A stretch of DNA of 41,958 nucleotides from the NCBI GenBank assembly GCA_021852055.1, contig JAJZOD010000004.1, positions 71,624-113,581 on the forward strand. The letters are read 5' to 3'. The stretch is from Microcaldota archaeon (GTDB lineage Archaea > Micrarchaeota > Micrarchaeia > Micrarchaeales > CABMGC01). This document shows positions 5,819-34,165 of the stretch, one piece after another. Under the pieces are notes generated by a model. It saw only the letters and a list, made by a program, of their open reading frames with translations, searched no databases and was not told where the DNA came from. Made by a program: the position numbers and the translations under genes. Each line of letters begins with the position of its first letter. The first letter of the stretch is position 1.

Positions 5819-7117
5819 ATGATAAAGGCTAAATATGAGAAAATTCACATTATAGTCAGTGAGAATATGGCTATATCATTAAAAAAGAGCACAACAAATA
5901 AGGATATTAATACACATGCAGGCACAGAATCAAAACCCGCAAACATTATAACTAAATGGAGCGCAATTGCATTAGTTGCAGCAGCACCTATGGCATTTGT
6001 AGCAGGCAATGCAGAGGCATGGGGAGGCAGGCCAGTCTTGGAACGCACAGTTTCAGGAGGCTATGGGGGCAGATTTGAAGGCAATGGCGGATTCGGATTC
6101 AGGGGATACAGGCGTGAAGGCAACTTCGGCAACAGGATAGTCGGCGCTCTTGTAGGAGGCGCAGCTGCAGGGCTGGTAGAGGGTGTTGTGAATGGAATTG
6201 CAAACCAACAGCCGTACTATGCACCGCAGTATGCCCCATATCCTTTAAGTTATGGAGTGCCAGGCGGCGGTGTTGTAGAGCAGACGGTAACAAGCCCTTA
6301 TTTTGCGCCGCCTGTTTATGCACAACCACAGCCTGTATACGCGCCACAGCCTGTTTATCAGCAGAATTACAGCCTGCCGAATGGAAATGTTGTCGAGCAG
6401 ACTGTAGGCAACGGATACGCCGTGCAGCCAACATATGCACCACAGCCTGTGTATGCACCACAGCCTGTTTATCCGCAGAATTACAGCCTGCCGAATGGAA
6501 ATGTTGTCGAGCAGACTGTAGGCAACGGATATGCCACACCACAGGCATATGTAACTGAAAAGCAGACAAGCACGTATGATCAGATGCGCTCCTTCAAACT
6601 TAGAGATGGGAATGTATTAGAGCCTACAGTAGGTCCTAAAAGCCCAGCCGTTCTGCTTAAGTATACGGATTCGGGTTACGTTATGATTAACTCAATGCCG
6701 AAAAGCAACTATAAGACAGAAGTATTTGACAGGGGCCAGGTTATAGTGGTATTTGAGGAGCAGATTGCCAAAAAACGCCTCGTTGAGAAACAACATGTTG
6801 CAGTAAACACCGCCGGAAAGAGCGTCTCTGCAGGCCTGAAGATCAATGTTGCTGTCAGCGCAGATGTTAATGGCATCAACAATGCACTTAAGCTGCAGAA
6901 AAGAGGCAGTACAAACGTTGTACAGCACACCAAGGCAAGATCTAAGGCTGAAACAAGCAACACTGCAAATAACCTAAAAGGCACAATTGATGTTTTGGAA
7001 AGCGCAGCAGACAGAGTATTCAAGGACATCGGGATAGCAACAGTGATGGTTTTGGCAGCTGCAGCCGGACTTGTTCTGATAGGCAGAAAGAGCAGGGCTA
7101 ATAATCAAAATAAATGA
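5819..7117 (+). CDS. Exported Tyr/Pro/Gln/Gly-rich repeat protein with C-terminal membrane anchor
   Basis: Unrecognised 432-residue protein. A hydrophobic segment (residues ~47-66, 'SAIALVAAAPMAFVAG') ending in 'NAEAWGG' looks like a signal peptide with an unusually long N-region. Next come a Gly/Arg-rich stretch, a glycine-zipper-like 'IVGALVGGAAAGLVEGVVNG', and a region of repeated 'YAPQPVY' and 'NYSLPNGNVVEQTVGNGY'. A globular part ('VLLKYTDSGYVMINSMP...') follows, then a C-terminal transmembrane helix ending in basic residues. The ATG at 5867 is an alternative start that would shorten the N-region by 16 residues. Topology suggests a surface-displayed anchored protein. No catalytic motif is seen. 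Confidence 0.75.
   Translation: MIKAKYEKIHIIVSENMAISLKKSTTNKDINTHAGTESKPANIITKWSAIALVAAAPMAFVAGNAEAWGGRPVLERTVSGGYGGRFEGNGGFGFRGYRREGNFGNRIVGALVGGAAAGLVEGVVNGIANQQPYYAPQYAPYPLSYGVPGGGVVEQTVTSPYFAPPVYAQPQPVYAPQPVYQQNYSLPNGNVVEQTVGNGYAVQPTYAPQPVYAPQPVYPQNYSLPNGNVVEQTVGNGYATPQAYVTEKQTSTYDQMRSFKLRDGNVLEPTVGPKSPAVLLKYTDSGYVMINSMPKSNYKTEVFDRGQVIVVFEEQIAKKRLVEKQHVAVNTAGKSVSAGLKINVAVSADVNGINNALKLQKRGSTNVVQHTKARSKAETSNTANNLKGTIDVLESAADRVFKDIGIATVMVLAAAAGLVLIGRKSRANNQNK
6341..6537 (+). repeat. 114-bp-period direct repeat in exported protein gene
   Basis: Positions 6341-6423 and 6455-6537 are nearly identical with a 114-bp period (38 codons). They encode two copies of the 'QPVY.QNYSLPNGNVVEQTV' unit. 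A degenerate third copy precedes them around 6240-6290. Confidence 0.8.
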
Positions 7118-7203
7118 GCTTGTATGCGATAAATATGCGAGGATAAATAGAAACATATTTAAATGTTGATATTTACATTATGAACTGATAAAAGGCGCAT
7201 TCG

Positions 7204-7641
7204 ATGTGGAAACATACTGAGTCTAATAATGTTAGAACAATATTGCAATTTGCCTTTCTTGTTGGCATACTTGGGAGTTTGCTAGGCACTGTGTCGTATG
7301 CAGGGGTAACAATAGTTAACGCAGGCGTTGCAAACGTGCAGAACATACTTTGCAGCGTGGTTACTACTGTTTCAGACATACTGAGCATACTCGCGCTTAT
7401 GATGTTCATACTAGGAGGCACGCTTTACGCATTCGCGCATGTTCTGCCTGCCACAGGCAACTTGAGGGCAAGCATGCAGGGCTGGGGAATGGGTATGCTT
7501 ATGGGCGGCATAATAGCACTTATATTATACATAATAGCACCTTACCTGATATCAACACTGCTGGGACTTACGACATCTAACCAGGGCAATGGGCAGAACG
7601 CACCTTCACCTTCGATTACAGCATGTCAGAATGGCTTTTAG
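7204..7641 (+). CDS. Small integral membrane protein, TrbC/VirB2-like layout
   Basis: A 145-residue protein with a signal-like first hydrophobic segment (residues ~12-34), then two long helices (~55-80 and ~95-118) joined by a short polar loop. This is the layout of TrbC/VirB2-type pilin-like proteins. The family link is by topology and composition only ('SILALMMFILGGTLYAFAH', 'GWGMGMLMGGIIALILYII'). No other conjugation genes are present. TATA-like ATATTTAAAT lies about 50 nt upstream. The gene ends at a strong T-tract. Confidence 0.6.
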   Translation: MWKHTESNNVRTILQFAFLVGILGSLLGTVSYAGVTIVNAGVANVQNILCSVVTTVSDILSILALMMFILGGTLYAFAHVLPATGNLRASMQGWGMGMLMGGIIALILYIIAPYLISTLLGLTTSNQGNGQNAPSPSITACQNGF

Positions 7642-8591: not shown

Positions 8592-8709
8592 GGCGGGGTA
8601 GCTCAGCCTGGTTAGAGCGCTAGACTCATATGCAAAGCATTATGAGTGATGAGCAGAGATGCTATGACGAGAAATCTAGAGGTCGCGGGTTCAAATCCCG
8701 CCCCCGCCA
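8592..8709 (+). tRNA. tRNA with CAU anticodon, intron in anticodon loop (probably elongator Met)
   Basis: GGCGGGG (8592-8598) pairs perfectly with CCCCGCC (8702-8708). The D stem is GCTC/GAGC, the anticodon stem CTAGA (8620-8624)/TCTAG (8675-8679), and the T arm GCGGG-TTCAAAT-CCCGC. Discriminator is A8709 and CCA is not encoded. The mature loop is C-T-CAT-A-A, anticodon CAU at 8627-8629. The anticodon stem lacks the three G-C pairs of initiator tRNA and the acceptor starts G-C, so it is not an initiator. Elongator Met is favoured, but Ile2 (agmatidine-modified CAU) cannot be excluded. Confidence 0.92.
8631..8673 (+). other. 43-nt tRNA intron at position 37/38
   Basis: Removing these 43 nt restores a standard 7-nt anticodon loop; the cut can be shifted by one base without changing the product. 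TCAT (8626-8629) can pair with ATGA (8664-8667), and AGCAT (8636-8640) with ATGCT (8659-8663). This leaves bulges of about 6 nt on each strand instead of the canonical 3, so it looks like a relaxed bulge-helix-bulge substrate for the splicing endonuclease. Confidence 0.8.
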
Positions 8710-26494: not shown

Positions 26495-28453
26495 TTACGC
26501 ACCACCGCAGCCGCAGCCGCCGCTTTCTCCTCCGCCACAGCCGCAGGAACCTTCAGAGCCGCAGTCGCAGGAGTCACCTTCTGATTCCTTATGTGTATGC
26601 TTTGCTGTATCATTAGCTGCCTGGGCCATAATAGGCGCAACGGTAGCCTTTGGCGCCGCCTGCACCTGGCCTTTGCCTTTTGCAGCACGCAGCGCCTGAG
26701 CTTCTGCGATATTTACAGGAAGCTTGAAGTAGTCAACTCCTCCGGCATATGCGCGTTTATACGCTTCTGTAGCCTCCAGCTCCTTGACGTTCCTCATGTA
26801 TTTATCGCTCCTGTATGTCCAGTCATGGTGCATGTTCTCCCACTCTTTTGAAGGTATACTGTACTGCTTTTGTATCTTATCGCGGTATACCTCAGGAAAT
26901 ACGTTGAACGTACAGAACGGAAGCACACGGCCATCAGGCATTGCATAGTGTATGTCGCACTTCTCCACGCGCTTTATATCGTAGGTGTACTCGTCCTGGA
27001 AGTGCATCATGCCCAGGAACAGAGACTTGAGCTGGAATGCGCCCATGGTCTGGAAGTCGTGCTTGAATATGACAGACATTAGCAGCTTGCCGAAGTTCAC
27101 CGACTTTGGCTGCTTCTCTTTGTCTATATACCTGCGCATGCCGGCCACTGCCTTAAGCGCTATGAGCTTTCTTGCCATCTTGCTTTTGCCTGACATCTCA
27201 TTTACAGAGTTTTGCAGGTGCTCCAGCAACCCAGCTGCGTCTACGAATCTCGTAAGAGGCACTATGCGGCCGTCACGATCTTGGAAGATGTATGATCCTG
27301 CGCCGCATGCAAAGTGTATCGAAAGGTCGTATTTGTACTCGCCTGTCAATGCTTCTATGAATTTATTTATGCCGCCGACGTAAGGCACTGAAAACCAGTC
27401 CTCTTTTGTTATGACGCCGTCTGTCTGTTCCTCTATAAGTTTTATAGCTCCAGGTATGGTTATGCGCTGCTTCTCCCTCTGGCGAGTAGGCATCCTTCCA
27501 ACAAGCGATACAGGTTGGAAGTTGACTGCCTTTACAACGTCGTTATTGTTGAGTGCGAAGTTTATTATCGACCCGAGCTCATGATCGTTTATTGTCCTTA
27601 TGACAGTTGGCACAAGCACTACGCCTATTCCTGCACGTTTTGCCGCTTCGAATGTTGCCGGGGCTTCCCAGTGGTTCTTCGGATTTGCACGTTTGCTTAC
27701 TCCGTCAAAGCTCATGTACAATGTGCTGACGCCAGCATGCCTCAGCTTTATAGCTTCATCAGGATTATTTGCCAGGTTTATGCCTGTTGTATTCAGCTGT
27801 ATTTGGTCGAATCCGGCATCCTTCGCAAGCTTTACTATTTCTACAAGATCGCTGCGCATCGTAGGCTCGCCGCCCGTTATCTGAAGGGCATTTGCAGGTA
27901 TCGGTTTCTGCGCCTTCAGTTCTACGAATATCTTATTCAACTCCTCTTTTGTAGGTTCATATATTGGCTCGCCTTCTTTTGCATAGAAGAAGCAGTACCA
28001 GCACGAGAGGTGGCATCTGTTTGTTATGACTACATTTGCCAGGCCTGTGTGCGACTTATGCCTTTCGCATATGCCGCAGTCGAACGGGCAGTTTTCTCCC
28101 TTGTTTATGAAATTTGGATTGTCAAAGCCTCTGCCGAAATAGTTGTAGTTCTTCATGCGCATGTACATCTCATAGTCTTCCCAGTACTTTTCAACAGACC
28201 ATCCGTGGTCAGGGCAGAACTTGCGTATCATGACGTTTTCATCGTCTTTGTATATTGTTCCATCGACTATTAACTTGCACTCCGGGCATACTGTCTTTGT
28301 ACGCTCAAGGACAGGCATTTTTGATACCTCCTCTATTGTCCTGTGGTATGGAGCCAGAATTAACTCTTCTTTTGATGCAGAGCCTGTCATTACGGCTTTC
28401 TGGACTTCACCAGATCCTACGGACACGTTAAGGTTCAGATTTTTGTCTTCCAT
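26495..28453 (-). CDS. Radical SAM protein of the tetraether lipid synthase (Tes)-like family
   Basis: 652 residues. An N-terminal Cys motif (C56-x2-C59 and C80) and 'CPFDCGICERHKSHTGLANV' (C122, C126, C129) precede the radical SAM cluster motif 'TNRCHLSCWYC' (C147-x3-C151-x2-C154). The order CP-x-DCG-x-C...H-x(n)-TNRC is the hallmark of the Tes/MJ0619 group, whose characterised member joins archaeal lipid tails to form tetraethers. The tail (~residues 625-652) is Gly/Ser/Cys-rich with three C-x-C pairs. A membrane-lipid substrate is inferred; other members modify other substrates. TATA box TTTAAATA (28491-28498). The transposon boundary lies about 7 bp upstream of it. Confidence 0.85.
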   Translation of the reverse strand: MEDKNLNLNVSVGSGEVQKAVMTGSASKEELILAPYHRTIEEVSKMPVLERTKTVCPECKLIVDGTIYKDDENVMIRKFCPDHGWSVEKYWEDYEMYMRMKNYNYFGRGFDNPNFINKGENCPFDCGICERHKSHTGLANVVITNRCHLSCWYCFFYAKEGEPIYEPTKEELNKIFVELKAQKPIPANALQITGGEPTMRSDLVEIVKLAKDAGFDQIQLNTTGINLANNPDEAIKLRHAGVSTLYMSFDGVSKRANPKNHWEAPATFEAAKRAGIGVVLVPTVIRTINDHELGSIINFALNNNDVVKAVNFQPVSLVGRMPTRQREKQRITIPGAIKLIEEQTDGVITKEDWFSVPYVGGINKFIEALTGEYKYDLSIHFACGAGSYIFQDRDGRIVPLTRFVDAAGLLEHLQNSVNEMSGKSKMARKLIALKAVAGMRRYIDKEKQPKSVNFGKLLMSVIFKHDFQTMGAFQLKSLFLGMMHFQDEYTYDIKRVEKCDIHYAMPDGRVLPFCTFNVFPEVYRDKIQKQYSIPSKEWENMHHDWTYRSDKYMRNVKELEATEAYKRAYAGGVDYFKLPVNIAEAQALRAAKGKGQVQAAPKATVAPIMAQAANDTAKHTHKESEGDSCDCGSEGSCGCGGGESGGCGCGGA

Positions 28454-28498: not shown

Positions 28499-28504
28499 CA
28501 TGGT

Positions 28505-28513
28505 GGTGGACAG
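28505..28513. repeat. Left 9-bp target-site duplication
   Basis: GGTGGACAG directly abuts the left terminal inverted repeat and is repeated exactly at 34157-34165. Confidence 0.85.
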
Positions 28514-28531
28514 GGGATTGGGACATAAGTC
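28514..28531. repeat. Left terminal inverted repeat (18 bp)
   Basis: GGGATTGGGACATAAGTC; its exact reverse complement is at 34139-34156. Similarity stops right after the 18th base. Confidence 0.9.
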
Positions 28532-28536
28532 GATAA

Positions 28537-28695
28537 TCAATCCTTTACAATTATAACATAGGCCCGCTTTCCAATATACTCTTTCACACAATCTACTTTC
28601 GCACCGTTACCGTACGGTGTAACCTTCTTTTCCATTATAACCATAACATCTTCAGATAACTTTAGACTTTTTGTACTAAAATTTATTTTCCTCAC
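28537..28695 (-). CDS. DUF2080-family transposon-encoded protein
   Basis: A 52-residue ORF with a GTG start, too short for usual ORF cut-offs. Its core 'EKKVTPYGNGAKVDCVKEY' followed by 'IGKRAYVIIV' matches the DUF2080 consensus (E-x-x-V-x-x-x-GN-x-A/G-K-V...P/V-K-x-x-IGK-x-V-x-V), an AbrB-like small protein annotated as transposon-encoded in archaea. Its stop is 5 nt inside the left TIR, and it is divergent from the transposase fragment, sharing a ~70-bp promoter region. The gene appears intact although the transposase is broken. DNA binding at the element's end or promoter is inferred. An internal ATG would give a shorter 32-residue form. Confidence 0.75.
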   Translation of the reverse strand: MRKINFSTKSLKLSEDVMVIMEKKVTPYGNGAKVDCVKEYIGKRAYVIIVKD

Positions 28696-28764
28696 AAGTA
28701 TCACAATATAGTAAATACATGTAAATACTTAAATACCTTACGGTTTGTATATACTTGTGATTAC

Positions 28765-28935
28765 ATGAAATCATACCGACTGACGAACAAAAGATTTTGG
28801 AGGTTCAAGCCGGACCTCAACAAGTTGACTGAATACTACAAAGAAAAGTACTCAGTGAAATCCGGTACTGACTGGAAGGATTAGGAGGTGACATACAAAA
28901 ACAGGCTTTATGTTGCAGCATCAGAGATCCGACCG
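28765..28935 (+). pseudogene. Transposase N-terminal fragment (in-frame TAG)
   Basis: ATG 28765 opens 'MKSYRLTNKRFWRFKPDLNK', reaches TAG at 28882, and the same frame continues 'EVTYKNRLYVAASEIRPVIQ' to about 28935. Continuity of frame and style across the TAG suggests a nonsense mutation in a transposase N-terminus. The sequence then changes to an IS200-type fragment in another frame. It has the orientation of the C-terminal piece at 33784-34140, and together they account for under half of a normal transposase. Confidence 0.6.
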
Positions 28936-28939
28936 GTAA

Positions 28940-29116
28940 TACAGAGTTTTCGAGAAGATGCCGAACTTTGTAAAGAGGTATCCAGACAGGCACTTCTGGG
29001 GAGGACAGCCCAGCGGCACCGGTGTGGGCCCTGTCGGAGAAAAGGTGATACAAAACTACATCAGAAGACAGGATGTTTCATACGAACCGTTCATGCCACC
29101 TAAAGGAAGACACTAG
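28940..29116 (+). pseudogene. IS200/IS605 TnpA-like C-terminal remnant
   Basis: The frame from about 28940 reads 'YRVFEKMPNFVKRYPDRHFW', then 'GGQPSGTGVGPVGEKVIQNY' and 'IRRQD', ending at TAG 29114-29116. The W-G-G, G-x-V-G-x-V and E-x-V-I-x-x-YI-x-x-Q pattern is the C-terminal region of IS200-type Y1 transposases. The catalytic HUH and Tyr parts are absent and 'GTG' replaces the usual aromatic 'GYF', so it is decayed. It starts where the DDE transposase fragment stops, marking an insertion junction. Confidence 0.6.
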
Positions 29117-29270
29117 ACAAACGAAATTGCTGTTTGTCTGAGGTTGTTATCGGGCGGGCGAGATACCGCTAGCTTGCTGCAGAGGAGCCCGCCCGTGCAA
29201 GGGGTTTATAAGGGGCGCAGCCCCTTATTTCATAAATAATGGGACTAATTGTCCACCTCGCTTATATGTC
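29115..29270. repeat. Cluster of four hairpins
   Basis: Perfect inverted repeats: AGACAAAC/GTTTGTCT (29115-29122/29132-29139), CGGGCGGGC/GCCCGCCCG (29151-29159/29187-29195), ATAAGGGGC/GCCCCTTAT (29208-29216/29220-29228, 3-nt loop), and ACCTCG/CGAGGT near 29253-29270. Subterminal hairpins are typical of IS200/IS605 ends; the GC-rich pair may also terminate transcription. The stretch to the cassette promoter at 29408 holds no gene that can be supported. Confidence 0.7.
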
Positions 29271-29407
29271 GAGGTAGGCACAAATAAGGCCATGAAAGCA
29301 GAATTGGCAGCTATCAGCAAGAGGAAGATACTGCTGATCACGCGGGTATTCTTCTCATTCTTACACGGCTTAGGCATAGACAGCCACAAAACTTCTTGAC
29401 AAAAGTA

Positions 29408-29563
29408 TTATATATCACATTTACAAGAAAATAATGGGATGGTAGAACCGTAGCCAGGTGTGCGGCTGTGGAATTAAGGCTAAAAGAATTACAGGGGATG
29501 TCATGTCCTGCAGCTTTACATATGTGAAATTGCTACGTGCATCGTATCAAATAAGGTAGTTAA
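29408..29563 (+). promoter_or_regulatory. Cassette promoter and long leader
   Basis: TTATATAT (29408-29415) predicts transcription start near 29437, giving a ~125-nt leader before the radical SAM ATG at 29564. This is long in a window where most genes look leaderless. Short complementary segments (AGCC/GGCT near 29452-29467; CAGG/CCTG near 29492-29510) suggest structure. A 33-codon ORF occupies most of the leader. Confidence 0.5.
29458..29559 (+). CDS. Possible 33-residue Cys-containing peptide upstream of radical SAM gene
   Basis: GTG 29458 opens a 33-codon frame beginning 'MCGCGIKAKRITGDVMSCSF', with three Cys, a basic middle and an aromatic/basic end. It stops 4 bp before the radical SAM ATG. 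Radical SAM maturases often have a small precursor peptide gene at this place, but there is no clear ribosome binding site and the frame could be chance. It may equally be a leader peptide or part of a structured RNA. Confidence 0.3.
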   Translation: MCGCGIKAKRITGDVMSCSFTYVKLLRASYQIR

Positions 29564-30760
29564 ATGAATGCAGCAATAAAAACTGTAAAATTACCTCAGT
29601 TATTAGAGAAGAGTGCAAAAGGAGCGTTGCGATCAACAAAAACTGAGGACAGTTTCTCTCCCACAGAAGCTAACCTCCCTAAAAAATCACATGAATCATT
29701 TATCTGTGAATTGAAAAATCTCGCTAAAAAATTCAGAGTACCCCAAGAAGACGTCATTTTAATTGCTATAAATTCAAATGGTGCCAATACTGATTTACCT
29801 CACGATAGAATACGTTTTAAACTGGCCTTAAACGGAACTGACAAAACATTCTACTTAGGTCTACCTAAAAAGCCCACTTCACCTTTCTATATATCTGCTA
29901 ATGAAATTGCACTTTCAGTAGACGGTACAAACATTGGTACGGCATTGGAAGTGGAAAATGATACTTGCGACGCAATTTACTTGCGTAGGGGCAGGACCGT
30001 TCTGAACTTAAATTCTAACTCGAGAAGCAGATGTAAGGGTTGCGCTTTTTGCTTTGACTCGCAAACGCCTCTTGATAATAAAAGGTTGACAGCACATGAC
30101 GCAATGGAGGAATTTATCGAAACATTTCTAAAAAAAGAAGCCAAATCCGATCTCGCACACTTATACCAAGTGGCACTCGTGACTGGCTGTTTTGGTTCTG
30201 AAGAAGCCACATTAAGACATATTTTGCTTGTTCAGGATGTTTTTACAAAGTATAAATTTAGAGGTGAACTGTTGTATTTTGGTTCTCAGCTAAGATCCAA
30301 AGATTCGTTCAAAAAAATAAAGGATAACATTCAGAATCCTGCATTGGTTCTCTCCATCGAATGTTTTGACCGCAGAAATGTACTTTTAAATAAACTGAAG
30401 TCCTCATTGACCTTAGATGGCGCAATTAATCTTTTGTCACTAGCTGCTGATAATGGTATCTCGGCAACAGTCTCATACATTGTTGGCCTGGATAGTCATG
30501 TTTCAATAAAAGCAGGATTTGAGAAGTTAGATGGTTATTTTGATAGATTTCCCATTCTAAATATTTTTCAACCACATAAGTCAGATCAAGAATTATTAAG
30601 AGTTCCTGGTGCAGAGAGGCTTGAGTATTACTTAATAGCGAGGGCGATATTTGAGGAGCTGTTTGCAGGTAAGCAGATAAAGCCCCGTACATGGGAAAAT
30701 TACCGTTCACTTTGGTATTTTGAGTATGCAGGTGAGAACCTCAATGAACAGACAATATAA
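29564..30760 (+). CDS. Radical SAM-like protein with atypical CX2CX2C motif
   Basis: 398 residues. 'RCKGCAFCF' provides C157, C160 and C163 spaced CX2CX2C, shorter by one residue than the canonical CX3CX2C. Downstream are TIM-barrel-like elements: 'QVALVTGCFGSEEATLRHIL' (Gly-rich strand 2), 'GELLYFGSQLRS', 'LVLSIECFDRRN', 'GISATVSYIVGLDS', and 'LNIFQPHKSDQELLR...LEYYLIAR', which recalls the C-terminal part of ThiH/biotin-synthase-like enzymes. N-terminal ~150 residues form an extra domain of unknown fold. It overlaps the methyltransferase gene by 17 bp. AT-rich codons (TTA, AAA) differ from core genes. Radical SAM chemistry is likely; the substrate is unknown. Confidence 0.75.
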   Translation: MNAAIKTVKLPQLLEKSAKGALRSTKTEDSFSPTEANLPKKSHESFICELKNLAKKFRVPQEDVILIAINSNGANTDLPHDRIRFKLALNGTDKTFYLGLPKKPTSPFYISANEIALSVDGTNIGTALEVENDTCDAIYLRRGRTVLNLNSNSRSRCKGCAFCFDSQTPLDNKRLTAHDAMEEFIETFLKKEAKSDLAHLYQVALVTGCFGSEEATLRHILLVQDVFTKYKFRGELLYFGSQLRSKDSFKKIKDNIQNPALVLSIECFDRRNVLLNKLKSSLTLDGAINLLSLAADNGISATVSYIVGLDSHVSIKAGFEKLDGYFDRFPILNIFQPHKSDQELLRVPGAERLEYYLIARAIFEELFAGKQIKPRTWENYRSLWYFEYAGENLNEQTI

Positions 30761-31475
30761 ACGGTGGGCTTCAGTATACCAAACAAAGCCAGAAGCATAC
30801 GATATGTTTGCTAAGGCCCAAGATACCAAACCGTTAATTGAATTGTTGCGTTTATCAGACGCGATAAAATCTAAATCCATCTTGGACGTTGGTACCGGCA
30901 CTGGAAAGTACGCCTTTCTTCTCTCAGATAATGGAGCATCTGAAGTAATTGGAATAGACCGTTGTTATGAGATGATAAACTTTGCCAAGACTGCTTTGCA
31001 TAAAAAACGAACCACCAACATCAAATTTTTGAATATAGATATTGCCCAATCAGATTTTTTTCTAAAGTTTGATTCCTCAATTTCAGCTTGGGCTATTAAC
31101 GCACCATGGAACAGCAGCTATGCCTCTCTGGATAAAGCACTCCACGCGGTTTTTAAGTCCCTTAAAAATAATGGACGTTTTTTCCTTATAACAACTCCCC
31201 CTGGAGAAATGGCCGGTGAATTGGCGGTTTATTTCAGTTCTGAGGAACGTAAAATTCATTTTGAAACAAAAGCAAGTTTCTTAAAACATCTTAAGACCCA
31301 TTGGGGATTTTATCAAGAAACAATTCGTGCGGATTGGAATTTTCAGACTTCAGCAGAAGCAGCATTATATTTTAGCCTATTTTATAAACCCGAACTAGCA
31401 GAAGTTATTTTAAGGAATAATATAACTACGGTTAAAGCTAACGCTGCCGCAATGGTTGCTGTCAAACAAGATTGA
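30744..31475 (+). CDS. Class I SAM-dependent methyltransferase
   Basis: 243 residues starting 'MNRQYKRWASVYQTKPEAYD'. SAM-binding motif I is 'ILDVGTGTGKYAFLL', motif II 'VIGIDRCYEMINFAK', followed by 'IKFLNIDIAQSDF' and motif IV-like 'SAWAINAPWNSSYASLDKAL' and 'LKNNGRFFLITTP'. The fold is that of small-molecule and quinone-type methyltransferases. The first 17 bp overlap the end of the radical SAM gene, implying coupled translation and a shared pathway. Upstream in-frame ATG (30726) and TTG (30720) starts are possible. Confidence 0.88.
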   Translation: MNRQYKRWASVYQTKPEAYDMFAKAQDTKPLIELLRLSDAIKSKSILDVGTGTGKYAFLLSDNGASEVIGIDRCYEMINFAKTALHKKRTTNIKFLNIDIAQSDFFLKFDSSISAWAINAPWNSSYASLDKALHAVFKSLKNNGRFFLITTPPGEMAGELAVYFSSEERKIHFETKASFLKHLKTHWGFYQETIRADWNFQTSAEAALYFSLFYKPELAEVILRNNITTVKANAAAMVAVKQD

Positions 31476-31507
31476 AGCCATAAAATATGAAGAATTTAAG
31501 TGAATAA

Positions 31508-32914
31508 ATGAAAATTGCTATAACCTACTCTATTACAAAAAATTTAGAATTAGCGAAAAGGCATAGAGAAGAGCACGCTATCCTAAAGGATAAAGGAGTA
31601 CTCGGATCCGATAAGAGAATGGATAAGAATATTGATACTGGTGGGAGGGTAGTTATACTTGACTGGAAAACTAAACAGGAAGTGTTCAGCACCGCAATAA
31701 GATCGGCTATGGGTATCGACTACTCAGACGAAATGTTTTATATTGCATCACGAAAAGATAATGCTATTTATGTTGTAGATCATAGTCTTAGAGCAAAAAA
31801 ATCAATAGGCAATAGGAACTTTAATGATCTTCATTCCTTAGTAAGAACAAATTCTGGCCTAATGCTCACAAGCTCCGGAATTGATTCTATAATCGAAGTT
31901 GATTTGAATGGGAATAGTCTTTGGATGTGGTGTGCCGTGGAGAATGGTTTCAATCTGAACCCAATCGGTGACATACGCGTTATTGATAAAACTGCAGATC
32001 ATAGAATGTTAGATTATTCTACACTAACACAGACAACGCACATAACCTCTGCAACATATACCGATGAAAAAGAAGAAAAAGTGTTAGCCACGCTCTTTCA
32101 TCAGGGTGCGGTTATTGAGATAGATAAAAAGTCTGGTAAAACTAGAACGGTCATTGAAGGATTAAGTGCACCACACAGCGTACAAAAATTCGGTAACTCG
32201 TTTATGATCTCAGATACCAATGCTAATCGAATACTTTTATTAAATTTGAAGGATACCGTAATAAAGGAAATATATGGCGATTTCAAATGGGTTCAAGACG
32301 CAAGACCATTAACTAATGGTAATTTTATAGTAGCCGACGCAAATAATAATAGGATACTTGAGATTAATTCACGCGGGGCGATTGTTGACGAATTTCATCA
32401 CTCTCGCAATTTTAAATTATTTAATGTTATAGAAATTAAACATTTACAATCGCGAGAAAAGTTTAAAGAGGTAGGTACTACGGGGGTATTTTTAACATAC
32501 ACCTCAGCAAACTACGAAACTTCAATGGAATTGTTACGACAAAGAGGTCTACGAGCACTTACCTATCAAGAAGCATTAGCGCTATTGGTCAAAAACTTAG
32601 ATCTGAAAGAAGAACTGAAAGGTAAAAAATGGTTTTATCTTGCCGATCAAAGCGGTACACAGTTATCTGGGTTTTATACAATCAATGAGCATGAAGAACT
32701 TGTACCTAAGAGAGGAAATGCAGAGGAGACTTTATTTGCCTGGAAGGGATCACGACCATTATCTCTAGGAGTGCATGCTGATGATAATCAAAGAATTAAG
32801 GAGAGGCGTTTCGTTCTTGTTGCAAATTATACCGGTGATGCCGTGGCCCCTGCAGTAGTCGGGGTCAAAATTGGAACAAACGTGATTTCTTTTAAAACAG
32901 GAAAGCCTAAATAG
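31508..32914 (+). CDS. Beta-propeller-like protein of unknown function (third cassette gene)
   Basis: 468 residues. Residues ~45-320 contain repeated four-strand-like units ('GGRVVILDWKTKQEVF', 'NAIYVVDHSLRAKKSI', 'DSIIEVDLNGNSLWMW', 'GAVIEIDKKSGKTRTVIEG', 'NRILLLNLKDTVIKEI', 'NRILEINSRGAIVDEF'), the pattern of an NHL/arylsulfotransferase-like propeller. His residues in 'FNDLHSLV', 'THITSATY' and 'APHSVQKF' recur at equivalent blade positions and could bind metal or substrate. A separate C-terminal domain (~330-468) is not recognised. There is no signal peptide, so it is cytosolic. It lies 32 bp downstream of the methyltransferase gene on the same strand with the same AT-rich codon use. Function unknown. 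Confidence 0.7.
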   Translation: MKIAITYSITKNLELAKRHREEHAILKDKGVLGSDKRMDKNIDTGGRVVILDWKTKQEVFSTAIRSAMGIDYSDEMFYIASRKDNAIYVVDHSLRAKKSIGNRNFNDLHSLVRTNSGLMLTSSGIDSIIEVDLNGNSLWMWCAVENGFNLNPIGDIRVIDKTADHRMLDYSTLTQTTHITSATYTDEKEEKVLATLFHQGAVIEIDKKSGKTRTVIEGLSAPHSVQKFGNSFMISDTNANRILLLNLKDTVIKEIYGDFKWVQDARPLTNGNFIVADANNNRILEINSRGAIVDEFHHSRNFKLFNVIEIKHLQSREKFKEVGTTGVFLTYTSANYETSMELLRQRGLRALTYQEALALLVKNLDLKEELKGKKWFYLADQSGTQLSGFYTINEHEELVPKRGNAEETLFAWKGSRPLSLGVHADDNQRIKERRFVLVANYTGDAVAPAVVGVKIGTNVISFKTGKPK

Positions 32915-32994
32915 TATGAACAGGATTAAATTTTCTGAGAAAACAATCGAACTATGACTATGATTCAGATAAAAGATGTAGATATAACTGCTGG

Positions 32995-33564
32995 TTGAAG
33001 CCCAGATTGGTAAGGGGGGTTTGTATAGAACACAACATTGACAAAAAACTCAAGTATTCATTCAAGAGATACAGCAAAATATATGCAATGTTATTTACCA
33101 GAGAAAGAAATAGGCTAATGAAGCGTCTTGGCAAGCCCGTGCGCATTGAGCACATAGGAAGTACAGCTGTTCCAGGGCTAGGCGGCAAGAACATTCTGGA
33201 CATCATGGTCGATTGGTCACCGAGAGGCTTACAGAGGCGAAAAAATCAATTAGAAAGATTGGGATACGCGTTTCATTCAGAAGATGGATCCAGAGATAGG
33301 CTGTTTTTCGTAAGGGACACGAAGTACATAGGCAGAAATATACGGATACATCTGCATCTCACAAATTTAAACAGCAAAGATTGGACAGAAGCACTCGCCT
33401 TCAGGAATTACTTAAGATATGACAAAAAAGCCATGTTAGAGTATGCTGCAGTGAAACGCAAGGCTGCAAGCATTGCAAACGGAGACAAGAGCCAGTACCT
33501 AAAAATAAAGGGGCCTTTCATAAATGCGGCGATACGGAAATTACGCACAGGGAAGCACGCGTAA
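32995..33564 (+). CDS. GrpB/UPF0157 family nucleotidyltransferase-like protein
   Basis: 189 residues. The family hallmark 'IEHIGSTAVPGLGGKNILDI' contains the G-S nucleotidyltransferase motif and the downstream Asp. It continues with 'RLFFVRD...RIHLHLTN' and 'ALAFRNYLRYDKKAMLEYAA', all typical of GrpB proteins, which are also found fused to dephospho-CoA kinase. Substrate unknown. A TTG start at 32995 is the best in frame; homologues start slightly later. Its codon use is closer to the host genes than that of the preceding cassette, so it may have joined the element separately. Confidence 0.85.
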   Translation: MKPRLVRGVCIEHNIDKKLKYSFKRYSKIYAMLFTRERNRLMKRLGKPVRIEHIGSTAVPGLGGKNILDIMVDWSPRGLQRRKNQLERLGYAFHSEDGSRDRLFFVRDTKYIGRNIRIHLHLTNLNSKDWTEALAFRNYLRYDKKAMLEYAAVKRKAASIANGDKSQYLKIKGPFINAAIRKLRTGKHA

Positions 33565-33783
33565 CAGCATTCGATTTCATTAACACTTGCCCGTTTATAT
33601 TTGCGTCATCACATCAGCAAAAGAGAAGCTAATCTTGATATCCTTGAACTCTCGGGGCTTTTCCGCTTCACATGGAGATAAGTTTCACTTCTCCTAACTT
33701 AACCTCGCCACTTTGAGTAGCGAGGTCTCTAACCTTCTTCTCTAACTCGATTCGCCAAATCGACTTTTACCAACGCAGATTGA
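33565..33783. other. Hairpin-rich spacer before transposase C-terminal fragment
   Basis: No gene is supported. ACCTCGC/GCGAGGT (33702-33708/33720-33726) and GGAGA/TCTCC near 33674-33694 are adjacent stems, and TCGATT/AATCGA lies near 33750-33765. The ACCTCG hairpin also occurs near 29253-29270 at the other side of the cargo, which may mark the two ends of the inserted segment. Confidence 0.45.
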
Positions 33784-34140
33784 GGTTTTTATCCCCATAT
33801 CTCACTCGAAATAGAAGTCGACAGTGTAAGACTCGATAAGTATTACACATGTCAGTCGATAGTGAAGAAATTCAGGACATACACACGATTCTATATTCTT
33901 TCGAAGACAAATACGACGGTGAACGGCAGTAAGAAATGGCACGAGACATGGAGGGACCTGATGGAAGACACAATGGCCTTCCTGAAAGAGTATTATAGAC
34001 GTGAGAGTTCCGAGAGTGGTTTTGCCTCGGACAAGAAGTCAAATGGTTGGAACGTATGGCAGAGGCGTTTTGACAGGATTGCGACGGCGGTTGTGTGTAA
34101 AGGCGTCTGGCACAACCTCCTTGTGTTGGGAAGAGGTTGA
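33784..34140 (+). pseudogene. DDE transposase C-terminal fragment
   Basis: The frame is open from a TGA at 33781 to the stop at 34138-34140 (118 codons). It includes 'EVDSVRLDKYYTCQSIVKKF' and 'YYRRESSESGFASDKK', followed by 'WNVWQRRFDRIATAVVCKGV' and 'WHNLL'. The DS...Y and E-S-GF-x-x-DKK features match the second Asp and final Glu regions of DDE transposases. The N-terminal half is missing. Its only local start is GTG 33862. The stop overlaps the right TIR. It is the counterpart of the fragment at 28765-28935. Confidence 0.8.
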
Positions 34141-34156
34141 CTTATGTCCCAATCCC
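34139..34156. repeat. Right terminal inverted repeat (18 bp)
   Basis: GACTTATGTCCCAATCCC is the exact reverse complement of 28514-28531 and is followed by the 9-bp target duplication. Confidence 0.9.
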
Positions 34157-34165
34157 GGTGGACAG
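34157..34165. repeat. Right 9-bp target-site duplication
   Basis: GGTGGACAG immediately outside the right TIR, identical to 28505-28513. Confidence 0.85.

Follow-up and report, generated by a model that had tools for sequence, protein, structure and literature searches.

Did a segment with perfect transposon ends and a target duplication move into its present site as a unit, or did its contents enter an insertion sequence (IS) that was already there? The question is raised by 5.6 kb of a 41,958-nt window, the whole stretch of DNA that was analysed, from a Micrarchaeota assembly (G000; 1.02 Mb in 14 contigs, about 90% complete). The initial annotation reported exact 18-bp inverted repeats adjoined without a gap by an exact 9-bp direct repeat, and both are present as described:

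28505-28513, no strand: left 9-bp target duplication (GGTGGACAG), an exact match to 34157-34165
28514-28531, plus strand: left 18-bp terminal inverted repeat (GGGATTGGGACATAAGTC), an exact inverted match, with ends common to intact Micrarchaeota ISs
34139-34156, minus strand: right 18-bp terminal inverted repeat, the exact reverse complement of 28514-28531
34157-34165, no strand: right 9-bp target duplication (GGTGGACAG), adjoining the right end without a gap

With up to three mismatches allowed, the 18-mer occurs at two places only in the window, namely the two ends, against a chance expectation of 0.01. It also forms the sole exact 18-mer inverted pair in the window that is spaced 0.5-10 kb apart, and this pair carries the 9-bp duplication. 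A chance inverted repeat is ruled out by that expectation and by the uniqueness of the pair.

The 18-bp ends are those of an unnamed, weakly IS5-like Micrarchaeota insertion sequence. Among 295 related genomes, the ends (GGGNNTGGGACATAAGTC, up to one mismatch) were present in 28, and six copies had both ends on one contig (G057, G075, G044, G051, G162 and G140), with lengths of 1251-1299 bp. Clear target duplications flank four of the six, being 9 bp long in G057 (ATGTATCCA) and G162 (GTATCGAAC) and 10 bp long in G044 and G051. The transposase of intact relatives, where complete, has 327-329 aa. Intact copies of the kind that the initial annotation proposed to look for therefore exist, and the same ends bound transposase-encoding ISs in relatives, which rules out a dispersed repeat unlinked to transposases. 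One intact relative matches the NCBIfam model IS5_2 (NF033579) over its whole length with an E value of 4e-6 and a score of 26 bits (cut-off 140), so only the label "IS5-like" is used here; no Pfam transposase domain reached the gathering score. The IS903 group of the IS5 family has 18-bp ends and 9-bp duplications. Our element has in common with the IS5 family a DDE-type transposase, 18-bp ends and a 9-bp duplication (in the window, G057 and G162), but it differs in its score under the family cut-off, in the 10-bp duplications of G044 and G051, and in the replaced middle of the window copy.

What is left of this IS in the window lies at its two edges:

28514-28940, plus strand: left remnant of the IS5-like element (from IS position 1 to about 415-473), 72.7% identical to the intact G057 copy over 396 bp
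28765-28944, plus strand: transposase N-terminal piece, aa 1-60, from alignment to three intact transposases
33801-34156, plus strand: right remnant of the IS5-like element, with 93.5% identity to the copy on G005:C21 and 89% to the host copy at C13:10795
33802-34140, plus strand: transposase C-terminal 112 aa (about aa 219 to the end), from alignment to intact relatives

The two remnants are 427 bp (left) and 356 bp (right) long, and homology of the left part to the G057 copy stops at 28934-28944. About 475 bp of the IS middle is gone, corresponding to about 158 codons of the transposase (aa 61 to about 218), and the lost segment likely includes the first catalytic Asp. The N-terminal piece also has an in-frame TAG at codon 40. 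Lacking these middle codons, the element cannot move itself. The two transposase pieces share an orientation, as originally noted, and they are collinear and non-overlapping. Their parts of the IS have diverged about equally from the G057 copy (72.7% identity on the left, 71.1% on the right), so nothing points to two source copies, and a separate origin of the pieces is unsupported; this is the pattern expected of one IS that has lost its middle. Outside the window, the host retains a 721-bp deleted copy with stops (C13:10795-11515), a decayed end (C13:94420) and a fragment on C6, and the host assembly, which is about 90% complete, yielded no intact transposase.

A 4.86-kb insert takes the place of the transposase middle. 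The earlier description of about 4.8 kb of unrelated genes needs amending, for roughly 300 bp at its left edge and 110 bp at its right edge derive from other, broken ISs:

28942-29236, plus strand: remaining 3' part of an IS200/605-type tnpA element that has lost its 5' side, 96% identical to G004:C46:14241-14536
33694-33801, minus strand: 3' end of an IS1634-family IS, 5' side missing, mostly 83-88% identical to dispersed copies

The IS200/605-type fragment gives a weak Pfam Y1_Tnp match (E 0.14), and translation of its G004 counterpart gives a TnpA-like protein, frameshifted, that contains an HVH stretch. The IS1634-like end is the terminus of a transposase gene in two loci elsewhere; an IS605 TnpB end was considered for this debris and ruled out, as the copies elsewhere encode an IS1634-family transposase. 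Both inner fragments are broken where they touch the IS5-like pieces and complete on the cargo side. A whole IS would keep both its ends on insertion; the cargo-side ends are therefore most simply explained by a fragment, broken at each end, that took the place of the IS middle. Copies of the IS1634 3' end were seen in 21 of 60 genomes, some without a transposase ORF nearby (L098, L101), and those at G000:C9 and G082:C1 lie close to variable-protein ORFs. This end may be able to spread alone, or it may mark a hotspot.

Between the two pieces of debris lie four genes:

29564-30760, plus strand: 398-aa radical-SAM-like protein, 30-36% identical to eight actinobacterial plasmid proteins
30744-31475, plus strand: class I SAM-dependent methyltransferase (Pfam Methyltransf_31, E 1e-14)
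31508-32914, plus strand: 468-aa protein with an NHL-like beta-propeller N-terminal part and a C-terminal domain like the variable proteins of diversity-generating retroelements (DGRs)
32995-33564, plus strand: GrpB-family protein (Pfam GrpB, 5.6e-35)

The first three form an operon, in which the start of the methyltransferase gene overlaps the end of the radical-SAM-like gene. The operon is compositionally foreign (GC3 about 0.31) and the GrpB gene is host-like (GC3 0.48, within the 0.48-0.55 spanned by it and the flanking genes). The 398-aa protein is called radical-SAM-like because some of its homologs are annotated as such; it matched no Pfam or NCBIfam family, and it has a conserved CX2CX2C motif instead of the radical SAM motif CX3CX2C. 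Its gene was not found in 147 other genomes searched. On the actinobacterial plasmids (L016-L019), genes for an enolase-like protein, a HAD hydrolase, a phosphoketolase, a methyltransferase and a dioxygenase recur around it in varying order. A plasmid or phage origin of the cargo was considered and set aside: there was no DNA match to plasmids, the radical-SAM-like protein had no phage or viral match, and the propeller protein had no match in phage records.

The insertion lies between two divergent genes, tes and orf337, 52 bp upstream of the tes start codon. The adjoining tes gene (26495-28453) encodes tetraether lipid synthase (674 bits; cut-off 450). In the congener G005, tes (88.6%) and orf337 (65%) are neighbours with neither IS nor cargo between them, an arrangement that supports their adjacency as the putative ancestral state. 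The proposed check for an empty site gave a partial answer: the flanking genes are adjacent, but the precise join of the two flanks was not observed, as the intergenic stretch in G005 is 826 bp long and of different content, against 296 bp expected for the window, and homology upstream of tes ends at 28499, six bases short of the duplication. Elsewhere in the window, an Rfam model identifies a tRNA at 8592-8709 (118 nt against a 71-position model) that ARAGORN missed in bacterial mode; it probably contains an intron.

Taken together, these findings show a genuine Micrarchaeota IS relic, non-autonomous and with its interior replaced. As to how it arose, we lean, by a modest margin over even chances, towards the insertion of one IS and the later replacement of its interior by captured DNA. 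A single IS copy of about 1.25-1.3 kb inserted between tes and orf337, as the ends, the duplication and the relatives show. Later, about 475 bp of the transposase gene would have been exchanged by illegitimate recombination for a 4.86-kb genomic fragment, a mechanism that the anatomy of the junctions suggests. The captured fragment would already have held, in order, the broken IS200/605 tnpA end, the three-gene operon, the GrpB gene and the broken IS1634 end. Without a transposase of its own, the element would now be a fixed relic and is probably immobile; only a transposase acting in trans could move its ends, and no sign of one was seen. All other end pairs on one contig in the 295 genomes are about 1.3 kb apart, and a spacing of 5.6 kb occurs only in G000. 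Against later capture stands the fact that pristine ends and a duplication would be equally expected had the whole 5.6 kb transposed. The initial annotation took the duplication as the footprint of one transposition event, and it does flank true IS ends, but it dates those ends only and not any movement of the cargo.

The initial annotation also offered two origins, an IS that swallowed cargo or a composite transposon that lost its inner ends. True IS ends and an IS body with a replaced interior were found, and the composite origin ranks lower. Two direct IS copies around the cargo would have moved as a unit, and their inner halves would later have been deleted into the IS200 and IS1634 debris. 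Such a history, which we regard as unlikely yet the most credible of the alternatives, accounts for the exact outer ends, the single duplication around 5.6 kb, the shared orientation of the transposase pieces and the debris cut on its IS-facing side. It requires, however, two independent deletions that happened to leave collinear, non-overlapping pieces. A composite transposon is defined by two flanking IS copies, and the window shows only non-overlapping N- and C-terminal pieces; no inner ends are left, and no relative with two flanking copies was found among the 295 genomes.

It is more doubtful still that the transposase of another copy moves the element as a unit, in the manner of a passenger-gene or "transporter" IS. 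A shared transposase could recognise the element's ends, which match each other exactly, as well as one end of the 721-bp host copy at C13:10795. That copy, however, is deleted and carries stops, C6 holds a fragment only, the host assembly yielded no intact transposase, and a search that reads both ends on one contig found no second cargo-bearing copy in the 295 related genomes. Other cargo bounded by the same ends, which the initial annotation suggested searching for, was accordingly not found between ends on one contig in these genomes, and, with the transposase dead as well, its view of the element as a vehicle for metabolic cargo is not borne out. Like passenger-gene ISs and composite transposons, the element has unrelated genes between transposon ends and one target duplication; it differs from them in that its transposase is broken by the insert, there is no second copy, and the insert is edged by IS debris. 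Stepwise accretion, in which IS200 and IS1634 inserted in turn into the IS5-like element and the operon entered via recombination between IS copies, with deletions, would fit the debris of three IS types nested at one site and the dispersal of both inner types in relatives, but it is the least credible history of all, since intact insertions leave both ends of the inner ISs and the presence of cargo-side ends only calls for extra deletions.

Whichever way the cargo arrived, its 468-aa protein raises a separate subject. It ends in a domain of a type that certain microbes actively hypermutate. Its N-terminal part falls below the cut-off for Pfam NHL and matches an NHL repeat region in the PDB at 2.6e-5; a single-sequence structure model of the protein (pLDDT 36) was too poor for use. 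The features of its C-terminal part are:

32453-32890, plus strand: C-terminal domain (aa about 316-461), homologous to stand-alone Micrarchaeota DGR variable proteins, with 41-54% identity in the best matches
32756-32869, plus strand: stretch matching the variable repeat

The domain matches ORFs of about 200 aa in 39 other genomes, several of which hold multiple copies of the family, and on contig C9 of the host. At one locus (L136; G054:C2:19000-25500), the order is variable-protein ORF, 102-bp repeat, reverse-transcriptase ORF, and 14 of 14 mismatches between the repeats fall at template adenines (hypergeometric p 3e-10). At another (L143; G049:C30), 11 of the 14 differences between template and variable repeats do so (p 4e-5). 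Because the mismatches are adenine-specific, the ORF family includes DGR variable proteins. No lectin match to the domain was found in the PDB by sequence profile, and PDB glucosyltransferase repeats were dismissed as relatives, being repeat-composition matches.

A search of the host assembly (about 90% complete) gave no template repeat for 32750-32914, and in the window no retroelement adjoins the gene. Host contig C9 (L134/L154, about 6400-7540) carries a variable-protein ORF and a C-terminal fragment of a reverse transcriptase, with an IS1634-end-like sequence just downstream; no template was found there, and the locus is apparently a decayed retroelement. DGRs are already known in DPANN archaea (PMC6349945, PMC10907252), and the targets of archaeal clade-5 DGRs are typically without another recognisable domain (PMC8144416), which makes the propeller fusion unusual. 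Compared with DPANN DGR targets, the C-terminal domain is homologous to Micrarchaeota variable proteins (41-50% identity), but it is fused to a propeller and no template was detected for it in the host assembly. One could imagine a cassette moved in trans among Micrarchaeota that would carry a recognition propeller (for a surface or ligand) with a DGR-type variable domain together with its modifying enzymes, while a retroelement at another place in the cell would edit the variable domain; we consider this very improbable, only marginally less so than stepwise accretion.

The locus illustrates in detail that perfect ends and a target duplication alone do not prove that the enclosed DNA moved. 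Our analysis defines a Micrarchaeota IS family by its ends, size and duplication that has no name in the libraries searched. The cargo in turn exposes a Micrarchaeota variable-protein family with adenine-specific template and variable repeats at one tested locus. One member of this family is a propeller fusion whose operon also encodes a rare radical-SAM-like enzyme, and reports on this group describe DGR targets that lack other domains.
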